The notes under the pieces were generated by a model. The model made no database searches, was not told where the DNA came from, and was given only the letters and a program-made list of their open reading frames with translations. Below, in pieces: positions 42,786 to 45,512 of a stretch of DNA of 64,000 bases (position 1 is its first letter; every line of letters starts with the position of its first letter). The position numbers were made by a program, and so were the translations under genes. Source of the stretch: Streptomyces fradiae ATCC 10745 = DSM 40063 (GTDB taxonomy: Bacteria; Actinomycetota; Actinomycetes; Streptomycetales; Streptomycetaceae); assembly GCF_008704425.1 (NCBI RefSeq), contig NZ_CP023696.1, forward strand, positions 3,086,501-3,150,500. Reading direction: 5' to 3'.

Positions 42786-42850
42786 GGCCACGAGAACCGG
42801 CGCCGCGGCCGGCTCCCCCGACCGCGGCGCACACTGGGAAGTGATTGAAG

Positions 42851-43627
42851 ATGGCCAAGCGAATCGACGTCAGCGGCCTCTCCGCGTACTACGGCAACCA
42901 CAAGGCGATCGACGACATCTCGATGACCGTCGAGCCCCGCTCCGTCACCGCCTTCATCGGCCCCTCCGGCTGCGGCAAGTCCACCTTCCTGCGCACCCTG
43001 AACCGGATGCACGAGGTCACCCCCGGCGGCCGCGTCGAGGGCAAGGTGATGCTGGACGACCAGAACCTCTACGGCAAGGACGTCGACCCCGTCGCCGTGC
43101 GCCGCACGGTCGGCATGGTCTTCCAGCGGCCCAACCCGTTCCCCACGATGTCGATCTTCGACAACGTGGCGGCCGGCCTCCGGCTGAACGGCGGCTACCG
43201 CAAGTCCGAGCTGGGCGACATCGTGGAGCGCTCCCTCAAGGGCGCCAACCTCTGGAACGAGGTCAAGGACCGCCTCAACAAGCCGGGCGCCGGCCTCTCC
43301 GGCGGCCAGCAGCAGCGCCTGTGCATCGCCCGCGCCATCGCGGTCGAGCCGGACGTCCTGCTGATGGACGAGCCCTGCTCCGCCCTGGACCCAATCTCCA
43401 CGCTGGCGATCGAGGACCTGATCGGCGAGCTGAAGGAGCAGTTCACGATCGTCATCGTGACCCACAACATGCAGCAGGCGGCCCGTGTCTCCGACCGCAC
43501 GGCGTTCTTCAACCTCGCGGCGGTGGGTCAGCCGGGCAAGCTGATCGAGATCGACGAGACGGAGCGGATCTTCTCCAACCCGTCGGTCCAGGCCACGGAG
43601 GACTACATCTCCGGCCGCTTCGGCTGA
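42851..43627 (+). CDS. pstB: Phosphate ABC transporter ATP-binding protein PstB
   Basis: A 258-residue ATPase. Walker A 'GPSGCGKST' at 37-45, '[15 protein letters not shown]' (PstB-specific Q-loop), signature 'LSGGQQQR' near 149 and Walker B '[12 protein letters not shown]' near 170. It powers phosphate import with PstSCA. The start at 42851 uses GGGAAG upstream; an in-frame TTG two codons earlier is less likely. The operon ends at the hairpin that follows. Confidence 0.97.
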
Positions 43628-43685
43628 TCCGACCCGCGCCACAGGCGTCGTGCGGTGCTGCATGGCGGTGCCACCGCACGACGAA

Positions 43686-43720
43686 GGGCCCGCCCTCTCG
43701 CTCCCGGAGAGGGCGGGCCC
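43686..43720. terminator. Strong hairpin ending the pst operon
   Basis: GGGCCCGCCCTCTC (43686-43699) and GAGAGGGCGGGCCC (43707-43720) are perfect complements with a 7-base loop: 14 GC-rich pairs, 58 bases after the pstB stop. The sequence is symmetrical and can also stop transcripts coming from pit. Confidence 0.85.
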
Positions 43721-43793
43721 GCTCGTCTTCCACCCGCGGCGGCGCCCCCGCCGCGCCCGGCCGGAGCGCGCCCGGCACGTGCCTCCCGGGCGC

Positions 43794-43851
43794 CCGGTTC
43801 GGCCGGCGGGGTACGCCTCCGGCCGGAGGCGTACCCCGCCGGCCGAACCGG
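43794..43851. repeat. 58-bp perfect palindrome downstream of pit
   Basis: The 29 bases from 43794 are the exact reverse complement of the 29 bases to 43851, with no spacer; the centre reads CTCCGGCCGGAG. It lies 35 bases past the pit stop on the minus strand. The flank 43850-43886 again has GGACGTACCGCCGGCC, an imperfect relation of the arms. Such a long perfect palindrome is rare in this genome type; it may end the pit transcript. Confidence 0.92.
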
Positions 43852-43886
43852 CCGGGGACGTACCGCCGGCCGCCGGGGGCGTACCG

Positions 43887-44885
43887 CTAGCCGAAGAAGA
43901 TCCGTACCGCGAAGAAGCTCACCGCGGCCACCGCGGCGGCGGCCGGCATGGTGATGAACCAGCCGAGCACGATGTTCTTGGCGACGCCCCAGCGGACCGC
44001 GTTGATCCGCTTCGTGGCGCCCACACCCATGATCGCCGAGGTGATGACATGGGTCGTGGAGATCGGCGCGTGGAACATGAACGACGCCGAGTACATGACG
44101 GACGCCGCCGTCGTCTCGGCCGCGAAGCCCTGCGGCGGGTCCAGCTCGATGATCCGGCGGCCGAGCGTGCGCATGATCCGCCAGCCGCCCGCGTACGTGC
44201 CGAGCGACAGCATCAGCGCGCTGGCGACCTTCACCCACAGCGGGATCGGGTCGCCGGACTGCTCGACGTCGGCGATGACCAGCGCCATCACCACGATGCC
44301 CATGGTCTTCTGGGCGTCCTGGAGGCCGTGGCCCAGCGCCATGGCCGCGGCGGAGACGGTCTGCGCGATGCGGAAGCCGCGCTTGGTCTTGTGCGGGCCC
44401 GACCTGCGGAAGATCCACATGATGGCGGCCATCACCAGGTAGCCGATGATCAGGCCGACGAACGGGGAGACGAACATCGGGATGACGATCTTCTCGAGGA
44501 CCCCGCCCCAGATGACCTCCGTCCCGCCGGCCAGCGCCGCGCCGACCATGCCGCCGAAGAGGGCGTGCGAGGACGAGGACGGCAGCCCGAAGTACCAGGT
44601 GACCAGGTTCCAGACGATCGCGCCGACCAGCGCGGCGAAGAGGATGCCCATCCCCTTGTCGCCGGTCGGCGTGGCGATGATGCCCTCGCTGACGGTCTTC
44701 GCGACGCCGCTGCCCATGAAGGCGCCGGCGAGGTTCATGACCGCCGCCATCAGCAGCGCGGCCCGCGGGGTGAGCGCCCGCGTCGACACGGAGGTGGCGA
44801 TGGCGTTCGCCGAGTCGTGGAAGCCGTTGGTGTACGTGAAGAAGAGCGCGACCCCGATGGTCACGACCAGTGCGAAGGTGTCCAC
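43887..44885 (-). CDS. pit: Low-affinity inorganic phosphate transporter (PiT family)
   Basis: A 332-residue membrane protein with the two PiT signature repeats: 'FTYTNGFHDSANAIATSVST' at the N-terminus and 'PISTTHVITSAIMGVG' near 280, where phosphate and cations pass. It imports metal-phosphate by proton symport. The DUF47 partner gene lies six bases upstream. Facing the pst operon, it places both cellular phosphate importers side by side. Confidence 0.93.
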   Translation of the reverse strand: MDTFALVVTIGVALFFTYTNGFHDSANAIATSVSTRALTPRAALLMAAVMNLAGAFMGSGVAKTVSEGIIATPTGDKGMGILFAALVGAIVWNLVTWYFGLPSSSSHALFGGMVGAALAGGTEVIWGGVLEKIVIPMFVSPFVGLIIGYLVMAAIMWIFRRSGPHKTKRGFRIAQTVSAAAMALGHGLQDAQKTMGIVVMALVIADVEQSGDPIPLWVKVASALMLSLGTYAGGWRIMRTLGRRIIELDPPQGFAAETTAASVMYSASFMFHAPISTTHVITSAIMGVGATKRINAVRWGVAKNIVLGWFITMPAAAAVAAVSFFAVRIFFG

Positions 44886-44891
44886 GGAGGT

Positions 44892-45512
44892 TCAGGACTC
44901 CTTGACGGCGATGGTCTCCACCGTGTTCGCCACGTGCTCGAAGGCGTCGGCCGCTTCCTCCAGCACGTCCACGATCTGCTTCAGCTTCAGCACCTCGATG
45001 GCGTCGTACTTGCCGTTGAAGAGGTGGGCGAGCAGCTTGCGGTGGATCTGGTCGGCCTGGTTCTCCAGGCGGTTGACCTCGATCCAGTACTCGGTGAGGT
45101 TGTCCATCGTCCGCAGGTGCGGCATCGCCTCGGCGGTCAGCTCGGCGGCCCGCGCCAGCACCTCGATCTGCTGCTCGACGCCCTTCGGCAGCTCCTCGAT
45201 GTTGTAGAGGACGACGAGGTCGACGGCCTCCTCCATGAAGTCCATGATGTCGTCGAGCGACGAGGCCAGGGCGTAGATGTCCTCGCGGTCGAACGGCGTG
45301 ATGAAGGAGGAGTTCAGCTGGTGGAAGATCGCGTGGGTGGCGTCGTCCCCGGCGTGCTCGGCCGCCCGCATGCGCTCCGCGATGTCGGCCCTCGCGGACG
45401 CCTCCGCTCCCAGCAGTTCCATCAGGAGCTTCGAGCCGGTGACGATGTTGTCCGCCGATGCGGAGAACATGTCGTAGAAGCTCGTCTCCCGGGGGGTCAG
45501 ACGAAAGCGCAC
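44892..45512 (-). CDS. DUF47 family PhoU-like Pit accessory protein
   Basis: A 206-residue helical protein, GTG start. 'FYDMFSASADNIVTGSKLLM' and 'MRAAEHAGDDATHAIFHQLN' followed by 'FDREDIYALASSLDDIMDFM' are the DUF47/YkaA family marks, a PhoU-like bundle that binds metal through ExxxD motifs. These proteins are made with Pit transporters and probably gate them. The divergent space 45513-45702 carries the csoR operator on its right; I could not find a clear PHO box for pit. Confidence 0.92.
   Translation of the reverse strand: MRFRLTPRETSFYDMFSASADNIVTGSKLLMELLGAEASARADIAERMRAAEHAGDDATHAIFHQLNSSFITPFDREDIYALASSLDDIMDFMEEAVDLVVLYNIEELPKGVEQQIEVLARAAELTAEAMPHLRTMDNLTEYWIEVNRLENQADQIHRKLLAHLFNGKYDAIEVLKLKQIVDVLEEAADAFEHVANTVETIAVKES

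Follow-up and report, generated by a model that had tools for sequence, protein, structure and literature searches.

The interval between pstB and pit, two convergent genes of phosphate operons in the window (the whole 64,000-nucleotide stretch of Streptomyces fradiae ATCC 10745 that was analysed), holds a perfect 58-bp palindrome that is single-copy in its genome and absent from the corresponding interval of the relatives that we compared. Streptomyces carries long, U-poor, near-loopless hairpins between convergent genes. We favour, with moderate confidence, the reading that this palindrome is an extreme, lineage-specific example of them, that it would serve as a two-way stop for transcription, and that it arose recently by template switching.

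A perfect palindrome between two phosphate operons

The features of the region, in window coordinates, are these:

42845-43627, + strand: pstB, final gene in the pst operon (Pfam ABC_tran)
43646-43683, + strand: genus-wide conserved stem-loop directly after pstB, with a covarying stem and a near-invariant apex
43686-43720, + strand: conserved terminator-like hairpin after pstB
43791-43854, no strand: extension of the palindrome with one mismatched pair (35-nt overlapping arms, 97%)
43794-43851, no strand: perfect palindrome, 58 bp, 29-nt arms, no spacer
43819-43872: imperfect tandem repeat, period about 29, made of the right palindrome arm and the next unit
43851-43893: imperfect tandem repeat, period 21; its second copy includes the final codons of pit and the stop codon
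43887-44885, − strand: pit, phosphate transporter (PHO4)
44892-45512, − strand: Pit-accessory gene upstream of pit (PhoU_div, DUF47)

The pst operon runs on the + strand and pit, with its PhoU_div gene, on the − strand, so the pstB–pit interval is convergent. The name pstB is our assumption from gene context; Pfam by itself gives only ABC_tran. Read from pstB towards pit, the interval contains the stem-loop, the terminator-like hairpin, a GC-rich spacer and then the palindrome, whose edge lies 35 nt past the pit stop codon, within a plausible 3′ UTR. The original prediction had described a 58-bp palindrome with a separate strong hairpin about 75 bases away, and both are real. The palindrome occupies exactly 43794-43851, and its 29-nt arms pair with no mismatch and a loop of 0. 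The neighbouring hairpin has 14-nt arms and a 7-nt loop, and lies 73 nt from the palindrome.

To place the length of the arms, we used four order-4 Markov sequences, each of 2.04 Mb, in which the longest exact arms were 13–15 nt when loops of 0–20 were allowed and 12–13 nt with loop 0 only; at 29 nt, the palindrome is well beyond chance. It also ranks first by perfect arm length in the 2.04 Mb of real sequence examined (the window and further stretches of the same chromosome, together 30% of 6.73 Mb), where the next arms are 24, 23, 23 and 23 nt long. The predicted fold is stable on either strand, with the stem (about 27 pairs) and the 4-nt loop identical from both sides. Folded as RNA, 43791-43854 reaches −68.7 kcal/mol, compared with −34.4 kcal/mol for the conserved neighbouring hairpin.

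We then took a census of long hairpins in the same 2.04 Mb, for which genes were called by a crude GC3 caller and no annotation was used. Hairpins with a score of at least 16 numbered 99, with 42 in convergent gaps, 46 in tandem gaps, 5 in divergent gaps and 6 within genes. The convergent share was thus 42/93 hairpins against 242/1146 gaps (Fisher p = 1e-6). When only gaps of 60–600 bp were considered, a hairpin with a score of at least 12 was present in 72/147 convergent, 88/380 tandem and 10/138 divergent gaps; two hairpins in one gap were rarer, and were seen in 7/147 convergent gaps of this size. This genome is rich in such hairpins, especially in convergent gaps, and the palindrome is therefore the far end of their distribution and not a class of its own.

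Two palindromes in the census with 18-nt arms, at genome positions 3371307 and 3586220 (outside the window), share the core TGTTTCACGTGAAACA, which we take to be the ParB site parS. Some of the counted hairpins are therefore protein sites.

Relatives and the origin of the palindrome

We compared the interval with 80 loci around Pit relatives, of which 76 had both genes and the 4 without pstB were left out, and with 30 more intervals from other Streptomyces genomes (32 genus loci, 2 left out). Together with the window this gave 107 intervals, among which some species may be counted in both locus sets. A hairpin lies at the position of the terminator-like hairpin, at most 60 nt from the pstB stem-loop, in 101/107 of them. 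A second hairpin is present in 9/107, the window included, and in 8 of these 9 it lies at most 90 nt from the pit end. The palindrome itself was found in 0/106 of the other readable intervals. The nearest relative found, S. roseolilacinus, whose Pit is 97% identical, can be aligned with the window on both flanks, at about 91% over the end of pstB and the terminator and at about 94% from the end of pit onwards. Its pstB–pit interval has no such palindrome, and the spacer cannot be aligned with that of the window and is too diverged to be used as the ancestral sequence of the palindrome.

Because S. roseolilacinus lacks it, the palindrome is so far lineage-specific and, on this sequence comparison, probably recent. 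A recent origin had been suggested by the original prediction, and it is supported by the absence of the palindrome from the nearest relative found and from the 106 intervals, as well as by the single copy of the arm. The difference may instead reflect loss in S. roseolilacinus.

A search with the spacer in 391 other Streptomyces genomes, in which at most two candidates per genome were scored and sensitivity was limited accordingly, returned weak local matches in 38 (E ≤ 1e-5). We checked 19 of these 38 matches as loci; none was at pstB–pit and none had a comparable palindrome. The best match lay 218 kb from the pstB stem-loop of its own genome (G385).

The arms themselves suggest how the palindrome may have formed. 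The right arm resembles the repeat units between it and the pit stop codon (TRF periods 29 and 21), and the left arm is the right-arm unit inverted. When the right arm was scored against the following 59 nt, its value was reached by 17/2000 shuffles and by 9/5000 genome windows, and the TRF scores of 64 and 76 were reached in 4.2% and 1.6%, respectively, of 2000 simulated regions; judged by these values, the resemblance to tandem copies is of modest significance. In its likeness to decayed tandem copies of the 3′ end of pit, the right arm suggests local duplication and inversion. We infer that the palindrome arose through a recent inverted duplication of a repeat unit akin to the 3′ end of pit, most simply by template switching during replication, which could make so exact an inverted copy in one step. 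That template switching can create perfect hairpins has been argued for RNA genes on the basis of ancestral reconstruction (PMC8794818). The palindrome resembles those hairpins in being a perfect reverse-complement copy of adjacent sequence that is absent in the nearest relative found, and is unlike them in that its switch points are presumed and not traced from an ancestor. It does not follow that retention means function; a recent templated mutation leaves a perfect palindrome as well. A palindrome of 58 bp would be short enough to persist stably.

Judged by eye, the spacer of S. roseolilacinus (L003) also seems to contain tandem copies of the 3′ end of pit, short and decayed, that are built on a different unit. 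The 3′ flank of pit may readily undergo local duplication.

A putative two-way stop and its alternatives

The original prediction offered a very strong bidirectional stop as one possible function. This is still the best functional guess, given the convergent setting, the enrichment of hairpins in such gaps and a Term-seq study in S. clavuligerus (PMC8269248), although we infer both the termination and the direction in which it would be used. In this scheme, a transcript from either side would fold into the stem and then end or be trimmed there. The stem would pause and end RNA polymerase leaving pit, keep transcription of the pst operon from running on into pit antisense and protect transcript 3′ ends, and the stop would also restrict antisense RNA between the pst and pit systems. 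Since pst already has a conserved terminator at 43686-43720, the palindrome would chiefly be a second, pit-side end, with pit as its main client.

Published Term-seq data are consistent with such a role. In S. clavuligerus, bidirectional ends (Bi-TEPs) combine longer stems and shorter loops with lower read-through, and structured ends without U resemble I-shaped terminators (PMC8269248); the terminator hairpins of Streptomyces are U-poor and the longest and most stable among the species compared (PMC12207403). The palindrome shares with Bi-TEPs the both-strand setting, long stem, very short loop and high stability: it is placed between convergent genes, and a long stable stem with a short loop is predicted on both strands. 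It differs from them in its perfect symmetry, its exceptionally long stem and the presence of a second hairpin in the interval, and it is known from sequence alone. Like the I-shaped (U-less) intrinsic terminators of GC-rich bacteria (PMC8269248), it has a stable GC stem without a U-tract; in comparison with these it is a putative terminator, and its stem is roughly double that of the conserved hairpin beside it. Another study describes cutoRNAs, which are RNAs from the overlapping 3′ UTRs of convergent Streptomyces genes, as well as a conserved antisense RNA opposite sco4137, the Pit-accessory gene, in three Streptomyces (PMC3765725). The genes pstB and pit are a convergent pair of the kind that forms cutoRNAs, as far as gene layout tells.

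Several observations stand against a stop. No U-tract follows the stem on either strand, as it would in a canonical intrinsic terminator, and a consensus scan of 43500-44000 found 0 terminator-like sites. A conserved terminator is already present 73 nt away, and the sister species S. roseolilacinus lives without the palindrome.

The main rival is a serious one. It holds that the palindrome is a neutral by-product, made by replication slippage and template switching in a GC-rich spacer that is under no constraint, with no selected role and possibly weak termination. We regard this as possible but not probable. The stretch that separates the conserved terminator from the end of pit cannot be aligned even with the nearest relative, has no homologue in the 391 other Streptomyces genomes save the weak local matches in 38, and contains local tandem repeats. 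However, the palindrome sits where long hairpins concentrate, and termination there would favour such stability.

A bolder and somewhat more doubtful proposal is that the palindrome is a newborn terminator. Units resembling the 3′ end of pit would have been duplicated and one of them copied back inverted by a template switch during replication, at a single stroke giving pit a private and perfect two-way stop beside the old shared terminator. Such mutation, rather than point-by-point selection, would stock the convergent gaps of Streptomyces with hairpins and keep those hairpins perfect.

We consider it improbable that the palindrome serves to bind a dimeric protein or plays a structural part as a cruciform. 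Its perfect dyad symmetry and a DNA fold of −42.5 kcal/mol would suit either, but the arm and the central 24 bp are single-copy, the site lies 3′ of both genes, and it is not conserved. Recurrence at regulon promoters and conservation, which would mark the site of a regulator, were not found for the full arm or the central 24 bp, leaving the protein-binding site of the original prediction without support. Slightly less probable again is an assembly artefact, that is, a falsely inverted copy. The observation does come from a single genome, but diverged copies of the unit surround the palindrome, and the assembly has many perfect hairpins of this type with shorter arms.

Least probable is that the palindrome is a dispersed palindromic repeat or marks a mobile-element end. 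The genus may contain repeats of this type, since a tenth pstB–pit interval, from S. dioscori (L009), has an unrelated hairpin with 28-nt arms and a 2-nt loop, a 17-mer of which occurs in 7/80 fetched Streptomyces loci, L009 included; by its sequence that hairpin is a probable dispersed palindromic repeat. However, the 17-mer has no copy in 2.04 Mb of the genome studied here. Neither the arm nor the central 24 bp of our palindrome has a second copy with up to 3 mismatches elsewhere in the 6.73-Mb genome, and viral contigs contained 0 exact copies. The palindrome is single-copy and therefore not a dispersed repeat in this genome, which, together with the viral result, largely refutes this alternative here.

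The conserved stem-loop after pstB

The stem-loop directly after pstB has a 14-nt apex that is identical in 105/107 intervals, with a single change in one and another change in L021. We aligned 32 of the 95 distinct stem-loops, chosen by eye for diversity, a choice that may inflate pair variety. In this alignment, 8/15 pairs changed on both sides, 92.7% of cells were paired compared with 86.2% in shuffles, and the covariation score was reached by 0/500 shuffles. A covariance model found one copy each in 37/37 Streptomyces genomes and none in 24 others; matches were found in 101/104 Streptomyces genomes compared with 0/15 others of the order, with a second match in two genomes. At all 44 of the 44 stem-loop loci checked, pstB was upstream on the same strand, and a convergent pit was present in 40.

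Rfam gave 0 matches in 43400-44200 up to an E value of 1, and our literature searches, supplementary tables aside, turned up no description of the stem-loop. Target sites for the apex in its own genome were also considered. With 3 mismatches allowed, there were 11 matches, including the apex itself, compared with 7 for the control, and these candidates were rejected because the count was at control level. Judged by its predicted structure, the stem-loop followed by the terminator would have the build of a small RNA derived from a 3′ UTR, which we put forward as a hypothesis only.

By itself, the palindrome changes little. It is a clear instance of one lineage acquiring a very long perfect hairpin between two phosphate operons, and is useful for testing template switching against slow selection as the source of the long terminator stems of Streptomyces. 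The pstB stem-loop may be the better lead, as a possible 3′-UTR RNA of the phosphate-starvation operon.
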